Of a stretch of DNA of 36,043 bases, positions 3 through 11,663 are shown piece by piece. Position 1 is the first letter of the stretch, and each line of letters begins with the position of its first letter. The stretch covers positions 1-36,043 of the IMG/VR virus record IMGVR_UViG_3300009149_006374; one strand, given 5' to 3'. Under the pieces are notes generated by a model, which ran no database searches, had not been told where the DNA came from, and saw only the letters and a program-made list of their open reading frames with translations. The position numbers were made by a program, and so were the translations under genes. This DNA comes from a virus.

Positions 3-185
3 GTTAATATAATATTATTCCATATGGTTATAGAAATCTGTGAGAAAAATGGATTCCTTCTTTTATCTTTTGATATAGCTGGGGAAGGTAATAATATGAT
101 TCAACCAATTGAAGAAAATACAATTAAAAATTGGGTAATCAATACACAACTAAAAAAATTCGAATTTGAGGTAACGAATGAATAA
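3..185 (+). CDS. C-terminal end of an unknown protein (partial)
   Basis: An open frame enters from the left edge and ends at the TAA at 183-185, giving about 60 residues of C-terminus with no stop codons. It overlaps the ATG of the next gene (178) by 8 nt, the same kind of overlap seen between genes throughout the window, which supports it as real coding sequence. The fragment is mixed hydrophobic and acidic and carries no motif I recognise. The true start lies outside the window. Function unknown. Confidence 0.6.
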   Translation, partial: VNIILFHMVIEICEKNGFLLLSFDIAGEGNNMIQPIEENTIKNWVINTQLKKFEFEVTNE

Positions 186-1224
186 AATTAGAATTGTAAA
201 CTGGTTACTAACCAGACGCTGTAACTTGCGCTGTGACTATTGTGCAATCGTTAAAGACTATAAGGGGATGCCTGGAGCGTATCCCCTTATGTCTCATTAT
301 AAAAATGATGAAATGACAACCAGTGATGTAATTAATGGTCTTAAAAAATTTAAACTACACAATCCTGACTGTTTCCATATACTGTATGGTGGAGAGCCAT
401 TGTTACGAAAAGATTTAGCAACTATAATAAAATTCTGTAATGAAGAAAATATTCATTATACAATTATTTCAAATAATACAAAAGAAATCGATTCGTTGAT
501 AAAAAAATTAGTAACAGATGTTAAAGGTAAAATAAAAGGATTTACTGCATCTATTGATCCTGTATTCTTTGACTTTGAGAAAGATGAAAATACTATTGAG
601 GATAGAGTAGTTAAAAGTCTTTATGGTTTTGCAAATTTAAAATTAATGAAAAATTTTGTCAAAGATGTAGTTGCAGAAATTACTGTAATGAAACATAACC
701 AAAAAGATTTATATAGATTGGTAAACCTTCTTACAGAAGAAGGAATAAACAGCGACATAACATTTATTGACATTGCAAAAAATCCATACTATGATTTTTC
801 AAATATTTCAGACCCAAATTTACTCGTCGAGACATCACCTGAATTGGCAAATCAGTTTCAAATGATATCAGATAGTGATGCTGATGTTCATATGAAAAAA
901 GTTTTATTACCTGAAATATGGAATATATTACCATCAAATATGGATTGTAAAATTGATGAAAATCTTCATAATGTTTCAGTCGATGCAGATGGAACTATTA
1001 GATTATGTTTACGAATAAGAGGCACAACAACACCAACATTAATAAATCTCAAAAATATATTTGATGATAATAATGAAGTAACAGAATTAGCTCATTCTTG
1101 TATTAGAATAGATAAAAAAGAATATTGTGAGCTATGTAATCATACTTGTCATATAATGAGCAAATATATAAATGACAATGATACAGGACCAGAAGATTTG
1201 GTTCATCTAAACAGGAGGAGTTAA
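178..1224 (+). CDS. Radical SAM enzyme with SPASM-like C-terminal cysteines
   Basis: The protein has 348 residues. Residues 15-22 hold the radical SAM CxxxCxxC motif (C15, C19, C22), which binds the 4Fe-4S cluster that cleaves S-adenosylmethionine; GGEP at 71-74 is the usual SAM-contacting motif. A C-terminal cysteine set (C257, C277, C308, C317, C320, C324) looks like a SPASM/twitch domain binding auxiliary iron-sulfur clusters. Members of that group usually modify peptides or proteins (RiPP maturases, anaerobic sulfatase maturases), so a polypeptide substrate is likely but not shown. The gene starts inside the end of the upstream frame, and an AGGAGG near its own 3' end serves the next gene. 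It lies just upstream of the ubiquitin-like cassette; whether the two are linked is inference. The family call is firm, the substrate unknown. Confidence 0.88.
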   Translation: MNKIRIVNWLLTRRCNLRCDYCAIVKDYKGMPGAYPLMSHYKNDEMTTSDVINGLKKFKLHNPDCFHILYGGEPLLRKDLATIIKFCNEENIHYTIISNNTKEIDSLIKKLVTDVKGKIKGFTASIDPVFFDFEKDENTIEDRVVKSLYGFANLKLMKNFVKDVVAEITVMKHNQKDLYRLVNLLTEEGINSDITFIDIAKNPYYDFSNISDPNLLVETSPELANQFQMISDSDADVHMKKVLLPEIWNILPSNMDCKIDENLHNVSVDADGTIRLCLRIRGTTTPTLINLKNIFDDNNEVTELAHSCIRIDKKEYCELCNHTCHIMSKYINDNDTGPEDLVHLNRRS

Positions 1225-1227
1225 GGT

Positions 1228-1572
1228 ATGGAATTCGATCCCGAAGTAATTCAAAATGCTATTCAGTTTTGGCAGAAATTAAATTCAGAAAAAGAAGTTA
1301 TGATTAAATTTACAAAGAAAGATAAAACAATAAGGTTTATGAAATGCACATTGGATTTTCAAAAGATTCCACAAATTGATCATCCGAAAAAAGTAGACAT
1401 AGCAAAAATTTTAAAATTGATGCAAAACAGTGGAATATTACATGTATATGATCTTGATAAAAAAGGATGGCGTTCAGTTCCCTTTAATACAATTGAATAT
1501 ATAGAAGCTGGGAATAAAAGGTATAAAGTTGTACCGATTAAACGTCTTGGTGCAAAGAAAAATGAAAGTTGA
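1228..1572 (+). CDS. Small phage protein, SH3-like/DUF2693-type
   Basis: The protein has 114 residues. The middle has a basic beta-strand pattern (VMIKFTKKDKTIRFMKCTL) and the C-terminal half carries GWRSVPFNTIEYIE. This 'K-D-x-x-R-x-M-x-C-T ... W-R-S' arrangement resembles small proteins of T4-like phages annotated as DUF2693 or WYL-like small beta-barrels, but I recall this from pattern only. The gene follows the radical SAM gene by 3 nt with a strong AGGAGG ribosome site (about 1213-1218), so it is translated in the same operon. Function unknown; nucleic-acid binding would be a reasonable guess for a basic SH3-like barrel. Confidence 0.6.
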   Translation: MEFDPEVIQNAIQFWQKLNSEKEVMIKFTKKDKTIRFMKCTLDFQKIPQIDHPKKVDIAKILKLMQNSGILHVYDLDKKGWRSVPFNTIEYIEAGNKRYKVVPIKRLGAKKNES

Positions 1573-1945
1573 AAAAATACAAACCACAACATTAGATAGA
1601 ATTATAAGAGAAATTCCTTCATCTAATATGACTCAAGAAATAAGAGAGTTATGTGATTTAATTATGAAAGAAGAAGTTCCAAAAATGAAATATCCACAGC
1701 TTGCACCAAAAGGTCCAAATAAATTTGCTATAATTGAGATAGATGGACCTAATAAAAAACAAAAAGGTTTTCTAAGTCTTGAAAGAGAAACAGAAGAAGA
1801 TTACATCGGCGTATTATGGACATTAAGATTGGATAAAAAAGAGAATCCTTTAAGAAAAAAGGTAGTCCATAAAATTGAAGGAAACAGTGCAAAGAAGATC
1901 ATTTATCAATTTGCGAAACTTGTAAAATTTTATAGAGGAGAATAA
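1562..1945 (+). CDS. Hypothetical protein, 127 aa
   Basis: I place the start at ATG 1562, which overlaps the end of the previous gene by 11 nt. A TTG at 1529, preceded by AAAAGG, would add 11 residues and cannot be excluded. The protein has a helical N-terminus (residues 10-40), a Pro/Lys linker (MKYPQLAPKGPNK), and a strand-rich basic C-terminus. No recognised domain. Its stop is followed one base later by the next ATG, so it is tightly coupled to the E2-like gene and belongs to the same operon. It may be an accessory part of the cassette, but nothing in the sequence shows a role. Confidence 0.7.
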   Translation: MKVEKIQTTTLDRIIREIPSSNMTQEIRELCDLIMKEEVPKMKYPQLAPKGPNKFAIIEIDGPNKKQKGFLSLERETEEDYIGVLWTLRLDKKENPLRKKVVHKIEGNSAKKIIYQFAKLVKFYRGE

Positions 1946-1946
1946 A

Positions 1947-4589
1947 ATGTTTTCACAGTTAGACGAAATTAGAATCAACAATACATATGCTAGTTCAATG
2001 ATTGCTGATTACGAAAATGGTGATCCTAAAAAAGAATCAAAACCAATTATAAATAAAAGAACAATGCGAACAGAAGAATTGTTAGATAAGTTAAATAAGT
2101 TAACTGATTTAAAACCCAAGGAATTTGTAATAAATCATTTGTTTCCCCCTAACTGTAGATATTTTGAACAATACAGTGAGGGATTTTTAGTTGTAATTGA
2201 AGAACCTCCAGCATATAGAACAATTTCATCTGATTCTGATTATGTAAATGAACTACAAAGTCTTAAATCTTCTGGCAAATTAGAGGAATATGGTTATAAA
2301 AATTGGTTGAAAGAGAATACAAAACCTTATAAATTTAATCTTGCATTGCCATATGTTGTATTCTTTCTATCATTTAATAGTAGTTTTGAGTTGCTTGGTG
2401 GAAAAATGTTTTTTAGAACACAACCAATATCAGGATTCAGTGATATACTATGTAAAGCTCCATTTTTAAATATAAACGATAGTCAAACTATTTGTTTTGG
2501 GGATAAGATTCATAGAGGGCCGCATAGAAGCATATTCGCAGATGTTAATTACGTAGTATCAACATTTTGGTCCACTATTTTTAATAATGATTATATGTAT
2601 AATTATATTGCATATCAAGATACTCCAATATTAGGTAACTATTTTTCATGGGAATATCATTCTCATACAGATCCAATGTTTATATATAAAGCAGATTGGA
2701 TTAAAGCAAAGGATATGACTGTACAGTCAACTGTCAATGAATTAAGAAATTGGATATTACATCGTCATAGGAGTGAGAGTTCTAGCAAAATTGGCTACAG
2801 TTCATTAAAGTCAATATTTAATTCACATAGTAAAAAAGATATGGAAAAAATTCCAAGAATAGATGCTAGTGATATGTTGATATATGATGTAGCTCAATAT
2901 ATATATTTAGATGATGTTGTGTATTTGAGAGTTGGTGATTCATTTAAAGATAAAAACGGAAAGAAATTATTTGTTGATTCGTTTTTAGGATTTAGAAACA
3001 TGTCAGATCCTGTATATGTGAATATTCAACACGAAAACGGTAAAATATTTAGAATGATGTTGAATTCAAATACCAAGAAATTTCTATTAGATAAAATAAA
3101 AGAAGAACGATATGTTACACAAACCACTTTACCAAATGGTACAGTTATAAAATACGGCGATATTATATCAATGAAGGATACATATGATCGTCTTGTATAT
3201 AGTAAGATTCATTATTTAAGACATGCTACAAATGGTCATTTAGAAGCTAGAATTGGAAGCGAATACTATTTTATAGATAGTCTACCTACAGACACTGCTG
3301 TTCTTGATATGTCAAACCCAGATTATTTTGGTAATAAATTAGAAATGGGAAAAGAATATTTTGTATTAAGACGAGATCGTAACCATCAAAATCCGAACTT
3401 ACCAATTTCTACAGCAATATTTAATGAAATAACTACAAATCAATATAAAGGTCTTATATTACTACTTACAGATACAGATAAATATAATAAAGGTAATACA
3501 TATAAAGTAGACCTCAATAACTCAGGAAACATGAAAAGAATTTTTCAAAAAGAAGAATTAAAAGAACTGCCTCCTGTATTTAGATTGGGTAAAAAATTGG
3601 TATATCTTCAAGATCAAAATAAAAGAAATGGAGAAGGAGATCTAGAAACAGCTTATTCTTCATATGAATTTGGAGTTGGCTTTATGCCTCAAATGGCAAT
3701 AAGAAAAGCTTCAAAGAATATTACTAATGGTCTATTAATTAAAGATGATACATTTACATTGAAAAGCTGGGATTATGATATTGAATTTTCAATAGGTGAT
3801 AAAGTTGTTGTTGCCAATTGGGAAAATCCCGTTGATATGTTGACTATAAAACAGATTAATGGTTTTGTAGAAAATAAAGATTCAGGTGATATCACATTTG
3901 TAATGGCCGATAAAAACGGCAAGATGTATGAGCATGTTTATATTGACGGTAAGAACAGTTCTGTAAAAATAGGTTCAGTCAGAAAAATAACAAATAAATA
4001 TGGTGATTTAAGTGCTGGTATGAAGATTGTGGCTAAGGAATCAGGTATTTCAATGTTTCCGAAAAAAGATAACAACATCATCATTGGCTTTATAATTGAT
4101 ACTGGAGTAGAAGAGCCATTTATTCTTTGTTCAAATGCTTGTACATTATGGTATAGCGATGTTATAAATAAATTTGATAAAATAAAAATGGGAACTAAAG
4201 CATGGAAAGCAAAAGATCATGCTCCGATTAATCCATCAAAAATTAGAATACAAGCGGGTGATAGTTTTAATGGCCAATCAACTTATAAAAATAATTATGG
4301 TTTTGTGGCCCATATACCCATAGATTCAAGAAGTATAAGAGCACAACATCTTGACTATTATGATTCATATTTAGAAGCATATGTATTTGACAAACGCTTT
4401 GTAAGTGATATAAAATTTGATTCTATTTTGAATCCAAGATTAACTACAAAACAGGAAAATGATTTAGGATTTGTTCATGCGTTTCCAACATTTCATGGAT
4501 CGTATATTGAAACAAAAAATACCTTTTCAAGTGCCCTGTATCCAAACGACCGAAGGAGTATTATCAATGTTCCCAATAGTGGTGAATGA
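1947..4589 (+). CDS. E2 family D-like (PRTRC-B-like) domain fused to a long C-terminal region
   Basis: The protein has 880 residues with a strong ribosome site (GAGGAG, 1935-1940). Residues about 100-235 follow the pattern of the prokaryotic E2 family D (Prok-E2_D, found in PRTRC cassettes): strands LALPYVVFFLSFN, then APFLNINDSQTICFGDK with candidate catalytic Cys183, then an aromatic helix-rich tail (FADVNYVVSTFWSTIF). E2 proteins carry an activated ubiquitin-like protein as a thioester on this Cys. Residues about 300-880 are beta-rich and show recurring short segments such as YLRVGDSF, IKYGDIISM, FSIGDKVVVANW and IRIQAGDSF, suggesting several SH3/KOW-like barrels. Such a fusion is unusual for an E2. 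The 3' end overlaps the JAB gene by 23 nt. The E2 call rests on motif pattern only; the C-terminal region is not identified. Confidence 0.62.
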   Translation: MFSQLDEIRINNTYASSMIADYENGDPKKESKPIINKRTMRTEELLDKLNKLTDLKPKEFVINHLFPPNCRYFEQYSEGFLVVIEEPPAYRTISSDSDYVNELQSLKSSGKLEEYGYKNWLKENTKPYKFNLALPYVVFFLSFNSSFELLGGKMFFRTQPISGFSDILCKAPFLNINDSQTICFGDKIHRGPHRSIFADVNYVVSTFWSTIFNNDYMYNYIAYQDTPILGNYFSWEYHSHTDPMFIYKADWIKAKDMTVQSTVNELRNWILHRHRSESSSKIGYSSLKSIFNSHSKKDMEKIPRIDASDMLIYDVAQYIYLDDVVYLRVGDSFKDKNGKKLFVDSFLGFRNMSDPVYVNIQHENGKIFRMMLNSNTKKFLLDKIKEERYVTQTTLPNGTVIKYGDIISMKDTYDRLVYSKIHYLRHATNGHLEARIGSEYYFIDSLPTDTAVLDMSNPDYFGNKLEMGKEYFVLRRDRNHQNPNLPISTAIFNEITTNQYKGLILLLTDTDKYNKGNTYKVDLNNSGNMKRIFQKEELKELPPVFRLGKKLVYLQDQNKRNGEGDLETAYSSYEFGVGFMPQMAIRKASKNITNGLLIKDDTFTLKSWDYDIEFSIGDKVVVANWENPVDMLTIKQINGFVENKDSGDITFVMADKNGKMYEHVYIDGKNSSVKIGSVRKITNKYGDLSAGMKIVAKESGISMFPKKDNNIIIGFIIDTGVEEPFILCSNACTLWYSDVINKFDKIKMGTKAWKAKDHAPINPSKIRIQAGDSFNGQSTYKNNYGFVAHIPIDSRSIRAQHLDYYDSYLEAYVFDKRFVSDIKFDSILNPRLTTKQENDLGFVHAFPTFHGSYIETKNTFSSALYPNDRRSIINVPNSGE

Positions 4590-6177
4590 TGGTCAAACAG
4601 CATTTCCAGATGATGATATATATTATATTATATGTAAAGAAGGAGTCTATTTGAAAAAGAGACTTGGGGTGATGGAAAGCATTGCCCCAGTCAAAAACAT
4701 TTCTATTTTGCAAAGTGTCAATACAATGGCAAAAATGCATATTAGAAAGATTCCTGCAAAAACTGCTCAAGAAATTATAAACTTTTTTAAAGCAGTATAT
4801 AAAGAACATTTTTCAGAAGCAATAGTATTGTTGTTTTATAATCAAGAAACAAAAAAACATAAAATTATATGTCCAGTTCAAGAAGTAAGTGGTGCCGCAG
4901 CAGATTATAATAAAGGGATAGTTATTGAAGGTTATGATATGATCGGCACTATTCATAGTCATGCTTCAATGTCAGCTTTTCATTCGGGTATAGATGATAA
5001 AGACGAAGAATCATTCGATGGACTTCATATCACATTTGGTAATATACGGGATGATGATATAAGCGTATCAGCATCAATTGTAGCAAATGGTTATCGTGTT
5101 ATGGTTGATCCAAGAGATTATATAAATCAGTTGGAATTGACCGTTGATATTGATGAAAATATTCAAGTTCCATATTCAAGAACATGGAAATGGGATAAAA
5201 CCCAAAATAAAATGGTTGAAGTTTCCAATAATCGTTTCTATACAAAACGAAATTATGATCAAAGATATAAAATAAAAATAGCGAAAGATCCTAAATTCAA
5301 TCCAATATGGATGGAGCGTGTTACTAAGAAGGTATATACAACCAATTGGCATAAGGGATGGTATGGCCACAATGCACATAATCCATTCTATGGCGATTTT
5401 GATCCAGATTTATGGGAAGGTTGGCACGGACATAATGTTAATAGAGCTGTACCTTTAATAACATCAAAACCAAGTATTGTTCCAAAACCAACAATTAAAG
5501 ATACCATTCCTGCTGAAGATAAAAAAATAACAGCGTGTGATGACTGCGCATTTAAACATCATAAAATGAATTTTATATTAGATAAATTGAATGATGAATC
5601 TAAAAAAGCAGTGTTGGAATGGGCTCTCGATGAACTAGATAGTAATGCAGATTATATAATGCGCGAAACAATAAAAGATAGTGATGTTGAATTGACTCAT
5701 TATCATTGTGTTGCCTGCAATGGTAGATTTTCAGTAGATGAACTTGAAGATGATGCATGTTGCCCTACATGTGGAGTCGATGATTATCTGGACGAAATTA
5801 CAGCATCCGAAATGATGTTAAGTGATGTAGAATTTGTACATAGTGGGCATATTAGCGATGAAGTAGAAACATTTATGATTTATTGTAACCATTGTGGAAG
5901 TTCATTTTCAAAAGATTTTCTAAGTGGTGGAAACACATGTCCAGCTTGTAATGGAATTATAAATCCTGATCAAGAAATTTCAAGTGAAGGTTATAAAATA
6001 AAACAGGCTGGCGCAGATTCTGGAACATTTTTAGATCCAGATAGAGAAGCCATTGAACAGGCAATTGAGGCTGATAAAGACTTGGAAAAAATACCAATTC
6101 CAGGTCAAGAATCTATTCCAATAAAAGTAAAGAGATTTGGAATATTTGATAAATTGTTAAAAAGAGGAAAGAAATAA
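4567..6177 (+). CDS. JAMM/JAB metallopeptidase (deubiquitinase-like) with zinc ribbons
   Basis: I start the gene at ATG 4567 because GAAGGAG (4551-4557) precedes it; longer frames from 4471 would run deep inside the E2-like gene. The protein has 536 residues. The N-terminal domain (about 50-190) is a Prok-JAB: Glu84 upstream, then an exact H-x-H-x7-S-x2-D zinc motif at His130, His132, Ser140, Asp143. Such enzymes cleave isopeptide bonds or trim ubiquitin-like precursors. The C-terminal half has CDDC at 324-327 and two zinc ribbons (C381/C384 with C399/C402, and C440/C443 with C458/C461), which could bind substrate or nucleic acid. A His/Trp/Gly-rich linker (about 258-300) joins the halves. 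The gene sits between the E2-like and E1-like genes, as expected for a PRTRC-type cassette. All JAMM residues are present, so it should be active. Confidence 0.88.
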   Translation: MFPIVVNDGQTAFPDDDIYYIICKEGVYLKKRLGVMESIAPVKNISILQSVNTMAKMHIRKIPAKTAQEIINFFKAVYKEHFSEAIVLLFYNQETKKHKIICPVQEVSGAAADYNKGIVIEGYDMIGTIHSHASMSAFHSGIDDKDEESFDGLHITFGNIRDDDISVSASIVANGYRVMVDPRDYINQLELTVDIDENIQVPYSRTWKWDKTQNKMVEVSNNRFYTKRNYDQRYKIKIAKDPKFNPIWMERVTKKVYTTNWHKGWYGHNAHNPFYGDFDPDLWEGWHGHNVNRAVPLITSKPSIVPKPTIKDTIPAEDKKITACDDCAFKHHKMNFILDKLNDESKKAVLEWALDELDSNADYIMRETIKDSDVELTHYHCVACNGRFSVDELEDDACCPTCGVDDYLDEITASEMMLSDVEFVHSGHISDEVETFMIYCNHCGSSFSKDFLSGGNTCPACNGIINPDQEISSEGYKIKQAGADSGTFLDPDREAIEQAIEADKDLEKIPIPGQESIPIKVKRFGIFDKLLKRGKK

Positions 6178-6178
6178 T

Positions 6179-6859
6179 ATGAATATTGTTATTATTGGAT
6201 TAGGTGGCATCGGCTCTATACTATGTGAACGAATCGCAAGATATATAAAATATTCAGGCGATCCTGGCGCAAAAATATTACTCGTTGACGGTGATTCATA
6301 TGAACCTAAAAATTACGAACGTCAAGATTTTACTAGAATGGGTAATAAAGCAGAAGTGAAAGCTGCCGATATGAAAATGCAGTTTTCAAGTTTAGATGTA
6401 GGTTCTTTCCCTTCCTTCGTGAACGAAACAAATACCGGTCACATTATAAAAGAAGGATCTATCGTATTTATGTGTGTTGATAACCATCCAACCAGAAGAC
6501 TTGTATCGTATTACTGTAAACAATTAAATGATATTATATTAATTTCTGGTGGGAATGAACTAACAGATGGCAACGTACAAATCTATGTTAGAAAATCTGG
6601 TGTAGATATAACACCAGATCTCTGTTCTTATCATCCTGAAATTGAAACACCAGATGATAAGCATCCAGAAGAAATGACATGTGAAGAATTGGCAATATCA
6701 GAGCCACAGTTGTACTTTACAAATCTTACAGTAGCAACCTTTATGTGTCAAGCATTTTACAATGTTGTTATTAAACAACAGTGCGAGAAGTCAGAAATAT
6801 ATTTCGATATGCTTCAAATGGCTGCTCGCGCCCAAACAAGAATCGTGAAAAGTAAGTGA
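6179..6859 (+). CDS. E1/ThiF-family ubiquitin-like activating enzyme
   Basis: The protein has 226 residues. A Rossmann nucleotide-binding motif GLGGIG occupies 7-12; the acidic strand end D37/D39 and the N45-x-x-R48-Q49 motif match the ATP-binding and arginine positions of MoeB/ThiF/E1 enzymes; D101 and R106 match the later D-x-x-x-x-R motif. C168 in MTCEEL and C149 in DLCSYHPE lie in the region where PRTRC-type ThiF proteins carry conserved cysteines, and one may take the thioester. The family adenylates the C-terminal glycine of a ubiquitin-like protein; here the likely substrate is the product of the next gene. The start follows the JAB stop by one base. Fold and adenylation residues are clear; pairing with the ubiquitin-like protein is inference from adjacency. 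Confidence 0.88.
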   Translation: MNIVIIGLGGIGSILCERIARYIKYSGDPGAKILLVDGDSYEPKNYERQDFTRMGNKAEVKAADMKMQFSSLDVGSFPSFVNETNTGHIIKEGSIVFMCVDNHPTRRLVSYYCKQLNDIILISGGNELTDGNVQIYVRKSGVDITPDLCSYHPEIETPDDKHPEEMTCEELAISEPQLYFTNLTVATFMCQAFYNVVIKQQCEKSEIYFDMLQMAARAQTRIVKSK

Positions 6860-6869
6860 TTTGCAAATC
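6858..6869. promoter_or_regulatory. Perfect 12-bp palindrome upstream of the ubiquitin-like gene
   Basis: GATTTGCAAATC is its own reverse complement. It overlaps the stop of the E1 gene and lies 31 nt before the ATG of the ubiquitin-like gene, where an operator would sit. About nine such palindromes are expected by chance in a window of this size, so the evidence is position only. Confidence 0.2.
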
Positions 6870-6900
6870 AACCAAAAAAAAGTGAAAAGGAATTATTATC

Positions 6901-7365
6901 ATGGCACAATACAAAAGAGAAACTCTAGAGGGTAAAACAGTTCGTGATCTTCGTCAACTCGTTGTAAAACTGGGTATTGTTGGGTATACCAAGAAACCCA
7001 AAGATGTTATCATCGATGCTATTATGGCCAAACATGGCGTAGCAGGTTCAATCTCCACTGCTGCAATGGTATCTGACTCTGGTCTGTCCGGAGTAGAAGC
7101 AACATTTCAAAGCTCCATCACCAAACCTGATCTGGCAAAACGTGATCGCTTGAGCACCACAATTCAAGTATCATGTGGAGCATCAACAGGTCGTTTTCCT
7201 GTAACCGGGCGTTCCGTTGCCGAGGTTGGTGAATTCCTTCGGGAAGTATTGAACGTTGATAAATTGTCCTCAGGACTTATCAATGGTAAAGAAGTACCGG
7301 CAGATTATATTCTTAAAGCCGGTGACAATCTTGAGTTCCTGAAACCCGCAGGTAAAAAGGGATAG
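6901..7365 (+). CDS. Ubiquitin-like beta-grasp protein with N-terminal Rho-N/SAP-like domain
   Basis: The protein has 154 residues. Residues about 8-45 (LEGKTVRDLRQLVVKLGI, then GYTKKPKDVIIDAI) match the helical Rho-N/SAP/LEM-type nucleic-acid-binding module. After a Ser/Thr-rich linker, residues about 83-154 form a beta-grasp pattern: TTIQVSCG, GRFPVTGRSVAEVGEFL as strand and helix, a short NGKEVPADYILKAGD loop, and LEFLKPAGKKG ending in an exposed glycine. PRTRC protein C (Prok_Ub) likewise ends in a short tail closing with KG. The gene lies between two E1-like genes and has its own terminator (7383-7416). It is visibly richer in G+C (28 of 60 bases in each of two lines I counted, 7081-7140 and 7141-7200) and uses CGT for most Arg where neighbours use AGA, suggesting high expression or a different origin. 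The AAAAGGA ribosome site is good. Confidence 0.72.
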   Translation: MAQYKRETLEGKTVRDLRQLVVKLGIVGYTKKPKDVIIDAIMAKHGVAGSISTAAMVSDSGLSGVEATFQSSITKPDLAKRDRLSTTIQVSCGASTGRFPVTGRSVAEVGEFLREVLNVDKLSSGLINGKEVPADYILKAGDNLEFLKPAGKKG

Positions 7366-7382
7366 TAGTAGTCTCCAAAATG

Positions 7383-7416
7383 AAATGGGGGATCATAATG
7401 GTCCCCCATTTTATAT
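7383..7416 (+). terminator. Rho-independent terminator after the ubiquitin-like gene
   Basis: A perfect 10-bp stem AAATGGGGGA (7383-7392) and TCCCCCATTT (7402-7411) with a 9-nt loop is followed by TTATAT. It stands in the 81-nt gap between the ubiquitin-like gene and the second E1-like gene. Termination here would raise the amount of ubiquitin-like mRNA relative to the downstream enzymes. The T tract is short and overlaps the stem, so read-through is likely. Confidence 0.75.
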
Positions 7417-7424
7417 AAAATAAA
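7413..7424 (+). promoter_or_regulatory. ATATAAAATAAA motif, possible promoter element (copy 1)
   Basis: This 12-nt string directly follows the terminator and precedes the AAAGGAG of the second E1-like gene. The same string occurs at 17384-17395, again just before a ribosome site, and a close relative (AATATAAAAAAAGGA) lies after the terminator at 20883. It could be a core element for the phage polymerase, but AT-rich strings recur by chance in this genome. Confidence 0.2.
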
Positions 7425-7446
7425 AATCGAAAGGAGACTGGTATGT

Positions 7447-8373
7447 ATGAAAAGAATTGCTGTTATAGGACTAGGTAGTCTCGGTGGTACCTTATGTAAA
7501 CACATATCAGAAATGGAATCTATAGATGAACTTGTTTTAATTGATTACGATATAATTGAAAGTAGAAATATTCATAATTCAGTTTATAGTGCAATGCATA
7601 TTGGTGAAAGAAAAGTTGATGCACTAGGAGAAATAATTAAAGAAAATATTAATGTGATTCCAATACATACAAAATATATTGAAGGAAAAACCAAACTACC
7701 TGAAAATGATCTATTAATAGACTGTAGAGATGTAGTTTGCAGTAGAGGTAATGAAATTGATGTTCGATTATATATAACTGGAAAAATACTTATAATCGAT
7801 TGTAGGAAGAACGTTAGAACGCACTACAATTACGAAGGTTCGTATCGTAGATCATTATCAAAAAGCGAATTAAACAAAGCAGGTTTTTTCGCAGCACAAA
7901 TAGTTTGTAGCGATCAAATAAATAATTTGAGAAAAGGCAAAACAGTTCAAAGAATTAATTTGGATTTAATATCGTCAATATTAAATAAAGCAATGAAAGA
8001 AAGCATTGAAAATAGAATTGATATAATTTATGATTCTGTAGCTGGTTTAGAAAGAATTCATTGTCTTGAAGAAAACATTGAACCGATATTAAACTTAAGT
8101 AGAACAAAAGATGTGGATGTATTTATTGGAGAAAAACATTCATCAAATACAACTTTTTATGAATTGCCAAAACAGTTTGACAATTTTCCAAAAGTTGCAA
8201 AAACAAAATATGCTGTTATTCCGCGCAATTCGTTAAAAAATTCAAGTGATCTTATAAGAACTTTATCAAATATTGTAAAAGAGCAAAATAATATAGTGAA
8301 TTTTATAGTTACAGTTAAGAAAGAAAATGGAGAAACATTTGTTGAACTCCTTGAAGAAACAGGAGCTGCATAA
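7447..8373 (+). CDS. Second E1/ThiF-like protein, divergent
   Basis: The protein has 308 residues. GLGSLG at 8-13, D33/D35 and E38/N41 show the Rossmann and nucleotide-binding part of the E1/ThiF fold. Where active enzymes have N-x-x-R-Q, this one reads N41-I-H-N44-S45, so the arginine is missing. A later DCRDVVCSR segment corresponds loosely to the D-x-x-x-x-R motif. The last 110 residues are a separate alpha/beta segment ending FIVTVKKENGETFVELL, of unknown fold. The start is ATG 7447 with AAAGGAG upstream; an out-of-frame ATG at 7443 only opens 11 codons. It may be a non-catalytic partner of the first E1, as in heterodimeric eukaryotic E1s, or may act on another substrate. The fold is well supported, the role is inference. 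Confidence 0.8.
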   Translation: MKRIAVIGLGSLGGTLCKHISEMESIDELVLIDYDIIESRNIHNSVYSAMHIGERKVDALGEIIKENINVIPIHTKYIEGKTKLPENDLLIDCRDVVCSRGNEIDVRLYITGKILIIDCRKNVRTHYNYEGSYRRSLSKSELNKAGFFAAQIVCSDQINNLRKGKTVQRINLDLISSILNKAMKESIENRIDIIYDSVAGLERIHCLEENIEPILNLSRTKDVDVFIGEKHSSNTTFYELPKQFDNFPKVAKTKYAVIPRNSLKNSSDLIRTLSNIVKEQNNIVNFIVTVKKENGETFVELLEETGAA

Positions 8374-8771
8374 TGATATTAACTGTTGGAGAAAAGAGTG
8401 ATAAATCATTATATAAAAAAACATATATCTATATAGAAAAATTAATACCAAATAGAGTAGTTATGAATAAAAATGCTTATGAAATAACATATATAGATAA
8501 AATGTATCACCTTGATGGTTTCGAAGTATCCACAGAAAATGATAAAGTTATAAATATAAGATTGTTTGGTTTTCATGTAAATTGTGATCCAAATACAGAC
8601 ATTTATTGTTTGCCAGAATTCAAAAAAGGAGTTAACCTTACTCCAGAATATTTAAATTTGATAATAACGAACATTCAAACATATTACCTAGATAATTGCT
8701 TTTTCAATCCGACAGGAAAATTACTTCGGTATGAAAAAATGAAATCAATGTATGTCCAATTAAATCAATAA
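8373..8771 (+). CDS. Small protein with an E2-like His/Cys signature
   Basis: The protein has 132 residues; its ATG overlaps the previous stop (TAATG). Residues 64-113 read like the E2/UBC core: F-H68-x-N70, then C79-L80-P81, a short insertion, L-T-P, a helix LNLIITNIQTYYL, and FNP. In Ubc9-type E2s the H-P-N triad is followed by the catalytic Cys 8 residues after Asn; here the distance is 9, with the same following CL and helix. The preceding part (18-65) is strand-rich, as in the E2 sheet. If correct, C79 is the catalytic cysteine and this is a stand-alone E2 in addition to the domain in the 880-residue protein. Overall similarity is weak, so another fold is possible. Confidence 0.42.
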   Translation: MILTVGEKSDKSLYKKTYIYIEKLIPNRVVMNKNAYEITYIDKMYHLDGFEVSTENDKVINIRLFGFHVNCDPNTDIYCLPEFKKGVNLTPEYLNLIITNIQTYYLDNCFFNPTGKLLRYEKMKSMYVQLNQ

Positions 8772-8780
8772 GGAGTATAT

Positions 8781-8996
8781 ATGCCAAGATATCAATCAGA
8801 GATAAGTCCATTAGAAGATTATATTGAAAAAGTAACAAGAAACATTATTGATGAAAGAGAAACAAAATTAAAAGAGGAAGATGCTAAAAGTATAATTGAT
8901 GCAATGATTCCAGAGATTGAAAAAATTGTCGCCAAGGTTGTTATAAAACACTTAAAAGCGATATCAGTATTTGTACAAAATAATTTAAAGGAGTAA
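8781..8996 (+). CDS. Small helical hypothetical protein, 71 aa
   Basis: A strong AAGGAG precedes the ATG. The 71 residues are predicted helical throughout with heptad-like hydrophobic spacing (about 10-70), as in a short coiled coil. It lies 9 nt after the small E2-like gene and 6 nt before the RNA polymerase beta-prime gene, so it bridges the two modules in one operon. No family recognised. It could be a small polymerase subunit or cassette adaptor, but nothing in the sequence proves either. Confidence 0.65.
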   Translation: MPRYQSEISPLEDYIEKVTRNIIDERETKLKEEDAKSIIDAMIPEIEKIVAKVVIKHLKAISVFVQNNLKE

Positions 8997-9002
8997 TAAT
9001 GT

Positions 9003-11663
9003 ATGCCAAAAATTCTCAACTATCAAAAATTCTGTGAAGAATTACCAGAAGTTACATCGCTTAAAACTATTGGAAAAAGAAAATTTCATCCCAACGGTTT
9101 ATTTTCTGAGCAAATATTCGGACCTGTTAAGAATTATACTTGTCAATGTGGCACTTATTATGGAATTTCAAAATCCGGAGGAAAATGTGATTTATGTAAA
9201 GTTGATATTACAAACAGTGATGAGAGAAGACAGAGATTCGCAAAAATAATACTTCCAATGAAAGTTATAAATCCATTGATGTATGATTTGATAGTTGACA
9301 TTGGAGGCAAGTCTATTAAATCAGCTATTGATGATTTAATGAAGCACGAAAAAAGTATAATGTATATGGATGCAGATGAATTTGTTGTAACAACATCAGA
9401 TGATCAAATACCATCAGGTGCAACTACATGGGAAAAAACAGCTGCAATATATAAATTAGTTGAGGATGTTGCCACTACTTTAGCAGAAGAAGGAATTGAA
9501 GAGTGGCAACTAATCCTTGATAATTTAGATTCATTATTGATAGATCAAATTATTGTGCTTCCTCCAGATTTAAGACCAGTATCAAAAGGTGGTGGTGGTA
9601 AACAATTGATGGACAAAATAAACAGATATTATGTCCAGATATTAACAAAGAAAGAAATTATGCGCGATACAACTATCAATATTCATGCAGATAAAAATGT
9701 TTACTATACATATTTCACTCAGTTACAAAGTGTGGTCAATGAATTATATACACGAATACTTGAAAAAATGGCAAAGAAGGAAGGATTAATTCGTGGAAAT
9801 ATTTTAGGAAAAAGAATTGATTTTTCTGGTAGAGCTGTTATTACACCAGAGCCAACATTGAATTTAAATGAATGTGTTTTGCCATATTTGATGATTCTAG
9901 AATTATTTAAACTTCCAACAGCAAAACGAATTATTGAATTGGGTCATTTTAAATTATTAAATAAAGCTATAAATTTTGTTGATCAATGTATTGAAACAAA
10001 TGATCCTGTTCTATTTAAAATTGTTGAAAAAATTATTGAAGGTGAAGTTTGCATTTTGAACAGACAACCATCATTACATAAATTAGGAATGCTTGGATTT
10101 TATATCAAGATGTCTCTTGATAAAGTAATTAAAATACATCCGTTAGTTTGTACACCATTCAATGCAGATTTCGATGGAGATCAAATGGCTGTATATATTC
10201 CAGTGAGTCCTGAAGCAAAAGCAGAAGTAATAGAAAGAATGTTTGTTACTAAAAATTTAAGCAGTCCATCAAATGAATCTTTAACAACAATACCAAATCA
10301 AGACATTGTATTAGGAATTTTCTTTTTAACATCATCAATTAAAGATGGAGAGCAGATTTTCAACGATTGCTTGCCGCTTGATTATAAAACAATCAAAGGT
10401 CCTGTAGATAAAAAAGTTTTAATGTTTGTATTGAACGACATTAAAGATAATTATCCTGAAGATGTTACTGCAAATGTTTTGGACGAAGTTAAGAAAATAG
10501 GATTTAAATATGCAACATTAGTTGGTTGTACAATGTCATTAGAAGATTGTTATTTTGAAGGTTCTGGTGAAATGCGAGATAGACTTTATTCAAGCAAAGA
10601 TCCCAGAGAACAATTGACGGCATTATCACATCATGATGTTGTAACTGAATTAAGAGAAAAGTTTATGTATTCATATTTAATTGATTCGGGTGCAAGAGGT
10701 AGTTGGGATCAGGTTAAACAGTTAATATTAACACGCGGTTTTATATCAAACTTCGATGGAGAGATTTTACCTCAACCAATTAAACATAGTCTGATTGAAG
10801 GTTTGACTGAAGAAGAATTTTTCTTTTCAACATATGGCTGTAGAAAAGGACTTCTTGATGTTGCATTAAACACAGGAACATCTGGTTATCTTTCAAGAAA
10901 ATTAATATTTACATGTGCCAACTTACAACTGGATTTAGATTTAGATGATTGTGGAACTGAAGATTGTTTATCAGTTGATGTATCAACAAAAAGAAAAGCT
11001 CTTATGTTGGTCAATCGTTATATGAAAACTGATGCTGGATTAGTAAAGATTACTGTAGAATCATGTATTGAGTTGATTGGCAAAACAATCGAAATACGAA
11101 GTCCAATTTTATGTAAAAGTCCAAAATTATGTAAAACATGTTATGGAGATTTATATAAAAAGATAAGTAGTAGATTTGTTGGAATCATTGCAGCACAAAC
11201 TCTTGGTGAGCGAGCAACACAGTTGGTATTGAGAACATTCCATACATCAGGATCAGCTATAATGAATAAAGATCAAAGCAATACAAAAGGAGCCATTGAA
11301 CAGAAAGATATCATTGGCGATTTATCTGCAGTTGCATCATTACTTCATAAATTCAAAGGTAAGACATATGAAGATATAGTTTCTTCATTATTCGATGTAT
11401 ATGATAAAGATATTTATCACGTCCATTACGAATGTGTAGTTGCACAATTAATGTGGAGTAATTATAAAAAGTGGAGATTGCTTGAAAACAGAGATGAAGT
11501 AAAACCTCAATATTTCAGTATTCAGAGCGTGCCCAATCAAGAAAGCTGGATATTAGCAATGGCATTCTCTAATCCAAAACGATCTATTCTTCAAGGTATT
11601 TTATATGAAGGAAGATATACAGGTGTAATGGATAAAATATTAAAAGGAGTTCGTATTCGATGA
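9003..11663 (+). CDS. rpoC-like: DNA-directed RNA polymerase beta-prime homologue, single chain
   Basis: The protein has 886 residues, against about 1400 in E. coli. It keeps the N-terminal zinc site (C47, C49, C62, C65), the double-psi barrel segment with GKRIDFSGRAVITPEP, the catalytic NADFDGD at 387-393 (Asp389, Asp391, Asp393 bind Mg), the bridge-helix region (SGARGSWDQVKQL), the segment RKGLLDVALNTGTSGYL, the second zinc site (C650, C704, C710, C713), and the trigger-helix segment ending TQLVLRTFHTSG. All core parts are on one polypeptide, unlike phiKZ-type phages where beta-prime is split. Lineage insertions and the jaw are reduced. The start is ATG 9003 after AAGGAG; ATG 8999 is out of frame and stops quickly. 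It should form the active centre with the beta homologue at 12092. No alpha, omega or sigma gene is seen here. Confidence 0.97.
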   Translation: MPKILNYQKFCEELPEVTSLKTIGKRKFHPNGLFSEQIFGPVKNYTCQCGTYYGISKSGGKCDLCKVDITNSDERRQRFAKIILPMKVINPLMYDLIVDIGGKSIKSAIDDLMKHEKSIMYMDADEFVVTTSDDQIPSGATTWEKTAAIYKLVEDVATTLAEEGIEEWQLILDNLDSLLIDQIIVLPPDLRPVSKGGGGKQLMDKINRYYVQILTKKEIMRDTTINIHADKNVYYTYFTQLQSVVNELYTRILEKMAKKEGLIRGNILGKRIDFSGRAVITPEPTLNLNECVLPYLMILELFKLPTAKRIIELGHFKLLNKAINFVDQCIETNDPVLFKIVEKIIEGEVCILNRQPSLHKLGMLGFYIKMSLDKVIKIHPLVCTPFNADFDGDQMAVYIPVSPEAKAEVIERMFVTKNLSSPSNESLTTIPNQDIVLGIFFLTSSIKDGEQIFNDCLPLDYKTIKGPVDKKVLMFVLNDIKDNYPEDVTANVLDEVKKIGFKYATLVGCTMSLEDCYFEGSGEMRDRLYSSKDPREQLTALSHHDVVTELREKFMYSYLIDSGARGSWDQVKQLILTRGFISNFDGEILPQPIKHSLIEGLTEEEFFFSTYGCRKGLLDVALNTGTSGYLSRKLIFTCANLQLDLDLDDCGTEDCLSVDVSTKRKALMLVNRYMKTDAGLVKITVESCIELIGKTIEIRSPILCKSPKLCKTCYGDLYKKISSRFVGIIAAQTLGERATQLVLRTFHTSGSAIMNKDQSNTKGAIEQKDIIGDLSAVASLLHKFKGKTYEDIVSSLFDVYDKDIYHVHYECVVAQLMWSNYKKWRLLENRDEVKPQYFSIQSVPNQESWILAMAFSNPKRSILQGILYEGRYTGVMDKILKGVRIR

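Follow-up and report, generated by a model that had tools for sequence, protein, structure and literature searches.

In prokaryotes, ubiquitin-like (Ubl) conjugation has been found in bacterial defence, on plasmids, and in archaea, and phages figure in it as targets; the question raised by the locus described here is whether a phage may possess such a conjugation system of its own. The DNA analyzed (hereafter, the window) is a 36,043 nt fragment of a viral record, IMGVR_UViG_3300009149_006374, and the locus lies at positions 1947–8771. An initial annotation of the window had recognized within about 7 kb six genes on the same strand and interpreted them as one complete Ubl conjugation cassette, carried by a phage next to an RNA polymerase.

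Organization of the Locus and Its Carrier

All six ORFs were found at these positions on the + strand, in the order E2 family D (E2-D) protein, JAMM/JAB peptidase, first E1 enzyme (E1a), Ubl modifier, second E1-like protein (E1b), and small E2-like protein. The window also encodes a large terminase, T4-type baseplate genes, and the β and β′ subunits of an RNA polymerase; the co-occurrence of terminase, T4-type baseplate, and both large polymerase subunits points to a tailed phage. The β′ gene (9003..11663, +; RNA_pol_Rpb1 domains) lies downstream of the six genes and is syntenic in 52 out of 52 complete loci, so that the placing of such a set beside the RNA polymerase of a phage is upheld.

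Upstream, three further + strand genes are constant neighbours: one for a radical SAM protein (178..1224; Radical_SAM 45 bits), which is syntenic; one for a small WYL_2/phrog_1086 protein (1228..1572; WYL_2 32 bits, phrog_1086 54 bits); and, just 5′ of the E2-D gene, one for a 138-aa protein belonging to no family (1529..1945, with ATG 1562 as the probable start), whose residues C42, E85, and R86 are kept in 45/45 sequences.

Conservation and Inheritance of the Gene Set

A single protein query retrieved a 223-kb contig (L001) with an identical gene order, and alignment queries with the two E1 proteins returned 58 and 44 loci. Scans of viral contigs yielded 52 distinct viral loci harboring all six genes together with β′, on contigs of up to 312 kb. 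Thus, the survey of gene order in related phages that the initial annotation had proposed gave the same answer throughout: E2-D, JAB, E1a, Ubl, E1b, small protein, and β′ follow each other on one strand in all 52, usually preceded by the radical SAM, WYL_2, and 138-aa proteins. In this respect, and overall, the earlier observation is confirmed, and it is stronger than could be known from the window. A chance grouping of six genes was considered and rejected, the order being identical in 52/52 loci; adjacency to the RNA polymerase, taken as a proof of function, was also rejected, since it may represent plain synteny.

The distances between E1a sequences correlate with those between the polymerases (r = 0.79), and the same holds for E1b (r = 0.62); in both cases, 0 out of 999 permutations reached a value as high. 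Hence, the set has been passed on together with the phage core for a long time, rather than being a recent acquisition. A search anchored on the polymerase retrieved the full set in 61 of 80 loci, most of the others being cut by contig ends. Two polymerase-bearing relatives (L178 and L197) harbor neither module (as defined below) at the place of the cassette, which implies that the cassette is not essential in this phage group.

A different layout of the cassette parts occurs in two distant polymerase relatives, in which genes for a ThiF protein and, separately, for a JAB-like protein lie beside SbcD/SbcC-like genes (L195:2577-3440 and L199:3343-4896); in L195, the ThiF protein is short and a relative of the small protein with the H-P-N...C motif is also present.

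The E2-D Protein and the JAMM Peptidase

The E2-D protein (1947..4589, +; 880 aa) consists of a UBC-like N-terminal part followed by an uncharacterized C-terminal region of about 650 residues. In the window, it matches Prok-E2_D with 24.7 bits (E 2.2e-5), just below the Pfam cut-off of 25, and 17 of 28 relatives match the same family; moreover, N175 and C183 are invariant in 55/55 loci. According to these data, the E2-family-D-like domain read from the sequence is probably correct. Residues 300–880 belong to no family; by eye, they appear as a series of small beta-barrel domains, kept in the canonical relatives. A phage contig encodes two large E2-D proteins in tandem 5′ of the JAB gene (L057:4052-8850), and two contigs from metagenome-assembled genomes labelled Uhrbacteria and "bacterium" (L112 and L113) harbor a consecutive series of JAB, E1, and Ubl genes and two genes for E2-D proteins of 900 aa.

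The following gene codes for a 536-aa JAMM/JAB peptidase of the PRTRC_A type (4567..6177, +). An aaggag resembling a ribosome-binding site precedes its start, ATG 4567, the TTG listed at 4471 being only a mechanical ORF start. The protein matches PRTRC_A with 42.2 bits (E 6e-11), as do 27/27 relatives, and carries C-terminal Cys pairs of the zinc-ribbon type. The metal site E...H-x-H-x7-S-x2-D is represented by E84, H130-S-H132, S140, and D143, present in about 54 of 55 loci; hence, the isopeptidase does possess all the catalytic residues ascribed to it.

E1a and the Ubl Modifier

E1a (6179..6859, +; 226 aa) matches ThiF with 72 bits and PRTRC_ThiF with 42.4 bits. The GxGGxG motif, D37, D39, N45, R48, Q49, K57, and D101 are invariant or nearly so among 54 loci, in agreement with the assignment of an E1/ThiF enzyme with its adenylation residues. 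A catalytic-type cysteine, C168, is present in 54/54; judging by the motif, we take it to be the equivalent of ThiF C184.

The Ubl gene (6901..7365, +) codes for 154 residues arranged as an N-terminal Rho_N/SAP-like domain, a linker, and a C-terminal beta-grasp-like domain. In the window, the matches are weak (ThiS 18.7 bits, below the cut-off; Rho_N 18.6 bits); among 52 members, Rho_N is matched by 39, TGS by 16, and ThiS by 9 (E 0.01). These weak TGS and ThiS matches suggest a beta-grasp fold. No Prok_Ub match was found in ten long relatives, a result that is uninformative since the control was silent too. The tail, PAGKKG in the window, follows a nearly invariant G-x-K-G pattern, most loci ending in G-(K/R)-K-G; a minority of Ubl and E1b tails deviate, and in about a dozen loci, the Ubl bears one extra terminal residue, mostly Cys. 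Of the "beta-grasp protein ending in glycine" initially proposed, the glycine end is therefore well founded and the fold is a candidate assignment. Four loci (L091, L094, L106, and L110) possess an extra, shorter Ubl gene 5′ of E2-D.

The GC content of the Ubl gene exceeds that of its neighbours in 54/54 loci, with a GC3 of 0.34 vs. 0.18–0.26. Behind it, at 7380..7414 (+), lies a terminator-like hairpin with a 16-bp stem; the gap 7366–7446 has a folding energy of −33.7 kcal/mol (z −7.1). Of 53 loci, 91% have a hairpin below −10 kcal/mol 3′ of the Ubl gene (median −20.8 kcal/mol); for β′, the share is 28%, and for the remaining genes of the cassette, 2–8%. The Ubl hairpin escaped a consensus terminator scan of the window, its stem being longer than the form that the scan recognizes. 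Raised GC3 and a 3′ hairpin, combined in the Ubl gene alone, are compatible with production of the modifier above the level of its enzymes.

Two Separable Modules

The hairpin marks a boundary that coincides with reciprocal gene absences. The polymerase-bearing relative L176 harbors E1b and the small protein and no E2-D, JAB, E1a, or Ubl; the polymerase-bearing relative L185 harbors these four genes and neither E1b nor the small protein. Together with the hairpin, these absences imply that a module A (E2-D, JAB, E1a, and Ubl) ends at the Ubl gene and that a module B (E1b and the small E2-like protein) begins behind it. Consequently, the idea of a single complete six-gene cassette has to be abandoned in favour of two modules, each of which stands alone in a relative.

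E1b (7447..8373, +; 308 aa) matches ThiF with 34.6 bits. Its AlphaFold2 model (pLDDT 91.5; the models of the small protein and of E1b used 50 and 55 sequences, respectively) comprises an E1 Rossmann domain (residues 1–178) and a C-terminal region (223–303) with a b-b-a-b-b topology, followed by a tail that reads ETGAA in the window and, for the majority of the 58 sequences compared, TGAA, TGGA, or TGSA. The closest fold to residues 1–178 is the E1 of CBASS Cap2 (Z 18.9), followed by MccB (Z 17.4), with ThiF and MoeB near; the PADLOC E1-E2 profile scores 38 bits. The second E1-like protein of the initial annotation is, thus, an E1 domain by both profile and fold. It keeps the G-rich loop, D33, D35, N41, K56, and D92; in the window, N44-S45 replaces the Arg-Gln pair of E1a, so that E1b may not adenylate. 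A search with its C-terminus gave no profile match to the Ubl and none to PDB sequences; the predicted topology suggests that residues 223–303 may form a beta-grasp.

The small protein (8373..8771, +; 132 aa) starts on the last base of E1b, and an overlap of one or four bases occurs in many loci. H68, N70, and C79 are present in 54/54 loci and P69 in 51/54 (V in the window). Since the median pairwise identity is 26%, it is informative that three residues in the spacing H-P-N...C do not vary. In one hhalign comparison with the E2-D domain (E 0.005), N70 falls on N175 and C79 on C183. Sequence searches (Pfam, NCBIfam, PHROG, and PDB sequences) retrieved no match of worth, and a Foldseek search with the AlphaFold2 model (pLDDT 88.8) had no significant hit in PDB or among viral models; in a second look with VIA, the highest rows were E2 or UEV (Z 2.7–4.3), the E2 rows aligning 81–95 residues. 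Such Z values are low, so an E2 fold is likely only. The initial annotation had called this gene E2-like and had recommended profile searches and structure predictions; the former returned the scores given above for the first five genes and no family for 8373–8771, and the latter gave an E1 domain for E1b and a weakly E2-like small protein. The motif is clear and the fold match weak, and the small protein is likely an E2, this being the least certain part of the assignment.

It is conceivable, though we think it rather unlikely, that module B is a peptide- or self-modifying pair of the MccB type, with the TGAA tail as its substrate, so that no Ubl chemistry would be involved and only module A would conjugate; this would be compatible with the explanation of module A given below. 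The presence of MccB among the best fold matches, an E1b tail that is conserved where the remainder is not, and the occurrence of module B alone in L176 are consistent with it. On the other hand, the partner of E1b has the E2-type H-P-N...C motif, and the b-b-a-b-b topology predicted before the tail fits a beta-grasp.

Possible Role of the Two Modules

We consider it probable that the locus represents the phage's own reversible Ubl conjugation system, organized in two modules and acting during infection. According to this model, E1a would adenylate the C-terminal glycine of the Ubl (end K-G); the Ubl would then be passed from E1a to C183 of the E2-D protein, which would attach it to target proteins, and the JAMM peptidase would detach it again. 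In some relatives, the peptidase may also trim the residue beyond K-G, such as Cys. The Rho_N/SAP-like domain of the Ubl (39/52 members) suggests that targets or conjugates are bound to nucleic acid, and phage or host transcription would be a natural, albeit unproven, site of action. Module B would add another pair, E1b and the small E2-like protein, that is closer to Cap2 in kind; there, the E1b tail may itself be activated.

Degradation might be imagined as an outcome of tagging. AAA proteins are encoded in eight of ten contigs, and one lies directly behind the cassette only in the distant L008; for this reason, a link to degradation is unsupported for the phage group. No ClpP-type protease was found in the ten contigs. 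As a separate observation, the Ubl, E2-like, JAB, and E1 genes of a GC-rich 45-kb viral contig (L008:495-2186 and L009:5904-8327) directly precede a gene for an AAA ATPase that has an OB domain of the proteasomal-ATPase type; the E1 gene continues across the ends of the contig, and the record is, thus, possibly circular.

The set could instead disarm immune systems of the host that rely on Ubl conjugation or on CBASS (Cap2), for instance through JAMM cleavage of host conjugates or through E1/E2 decoys, conjugation to targets of its own being secondary. The initial annotation had already offered shielding from the ubiquitin-like defences of the host, and modification of host proteins, as possible roles. 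Bacteria direct Ubl conjugation at phage assembly, according to work cited in PMC12660748, and E1b is nearest to the Cap2 E1 domain by fold and PADLOC profile. Nevertheless, we regard this counter-defence as improbable: the Cap2 match reflects the common E1 fold, MccB, ThiF, and MoeB being close; a full conjugation arm is present instead of a lone protease; and co-divergence with the polymerase is unlike the behaviour of a readily exchanged anti-defence gene. About equally improbable is that the Ubl is a sulfur carrier of the ThiS/MoaD/Urm1 type, thiocarboxylated by the ThiF-like E1a and acting with the radical SAM enzyme in tRNA or cofactor thiolation, for although Ubl members match ThiS and TGS and the constant neighbours include the radical SAM gene, the Ubl tail is K-G and not G-G, no sulfurtransferase was recognized among the constant neighbours with Pfam, PHROG, and NCBIfam profiles, and two E2-type N...C proteins and a JAMM deconjugase are retained, which favours conjugation since sulfur-carrier pathways need no E2 proteins.

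The phage's own conjugation system, with E1, E2, Ubl, and JAMM kept in order in more than 50 phage loci, would, if confirmed, mean that phages employ protein conjugation themselves, and what they tag during infection would come within reach of mass spectrometry. A bolder version, which we hold to be doubtful, depicts a jumbo-phage lineage with two independent, long-kept Ubl pathways: module B would be an E1 fused to its own TGAA-tailed modifier plus a minimal E2, a new self-contained kind, and module A would mark the phage or host transcription machinery via a nucleic-acid-binding Ubl. What we see looks like very large phages with an apparently full kit for Ubl tagging and untagging, and a second module, beside their own RNA polymerase genes. 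In the literature searched, a limited test, no description of a phage E1-E2-Ubl set was found; neither a review of jumbo phages (PMC7824862) nor a paper on huge phages (PMC7162821) mentions such a set.

Comparison with Known Systems

The first four genes had been likened to the bacterial PRTRC cassettes. These occur on plasmids and in bacterial genomes and comprise a PRTRC_A JAB, a PRTRC_B/E2-D protein, a PRTRC ThiF, a PRTRC_C Ubl, and ParB. The resemblance of the core holds, and module A is related to it: PRTRC models are the best NCBIfam matches of the phage JAB and E1a, and a plasmid relative (L117) shares the order of the phage genes, with an E2 family D protein, a hypothetical protein in the JAB position, and a ThiF. 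However, the scores fall far below the equivalog cut-offs (42.2 vs. 101.8 bits for the JAB, homologous to PRTRC_A nonetheless, and 42.4 vs. 144.75 bits for E1a), and ParB_N (PF02195) is absent from ten long related contigs, which may be incomplete (the control was positive in 10/14 genomes); module A is, thus, not PRTRC in the strict sense. In addition, no NCBIfam match to PRTRC D, E, or F was obtained among the cassette proteins, the only ones so scanned; the phage E2 has 880 residues, the phage Ubl, which gives no Prok_Ub match, carries a Rho_N/SAP-like domain at its N terminus, and the phage set adds module B and adjoins the RNA polymerase.

Module B recalls CBASS Cap2/Cap3 in the fold of E1b and in the coupling of an E1 with an E2-like protein. 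Cap2, however, is an E2-E1 fusion (Cap3 being a JAB), whereas the two phage proteins are encoded by separate, overlapping ORFs and E1b bears a C-terminal domain of its own, with a tail of the TGAA type; furthermore, the phage locus lacks a recognized nucleotide cyclase, no CD-NTase match being retrieved among the genes from 178 to 11663 (Pfam and NCBIfam).

Partial relatives of the set exist in cultured phages, namely Bacillus phage vB_BauM_KLEB27-3, Salmonella phage Arash, and Vibrio phage D69. In KLEB27-3 (gp194–gp199), an E1, a PRTRC_A JAB, an E2-D-like protein, and a Prok_Ub Ubl likewise lie in one region; in contrast, Prok_Ub is repeated four times in tandem in the Ubl (94 bits), neither E1b nor the small E2 was found, and the neighbourhood is another one. 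The gene of this Ubl, gp199 (L004:9700-10446), encodes units ending in AGVKG, resembling a polyubiquitin-like precursor. Arash (L201:1519-4536) harbors a PRTRC_A-type JAB (77 bits) and a ThiF (55 bits) beside an E2-D-like protein, and D69 has PRTRC_A, ThiF, and E2-D-like neighbours. The particle proteome of Arash lists Gp246 to Gp249 as "structural protein" (PMC10585845); assuming that the numbers used there are the locus tags, these would be the E1-, JAB-, and E2-like proteins, unrecognized as such.

The BilABCD/BubABCD systems, described in part in PMC11354881, embed Ubl, E1, E2, and a JAB/deconjugase in one bacterial operon, a union also seen in the phage set; here, however, the carrier is a phage, and the Bub E1 appears among the matches of E1b only as one generic E1 out of many. 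Lastly, the combination of Ubl and JAB has been described in phages for the lambda-type tail assembly proteins TAPI/TAPK, in an account that names no E1 or E2 (Iyer 2006, PMC1779556); the present phages share that pair, and differ in encoding a full set for activation and transfer as well.
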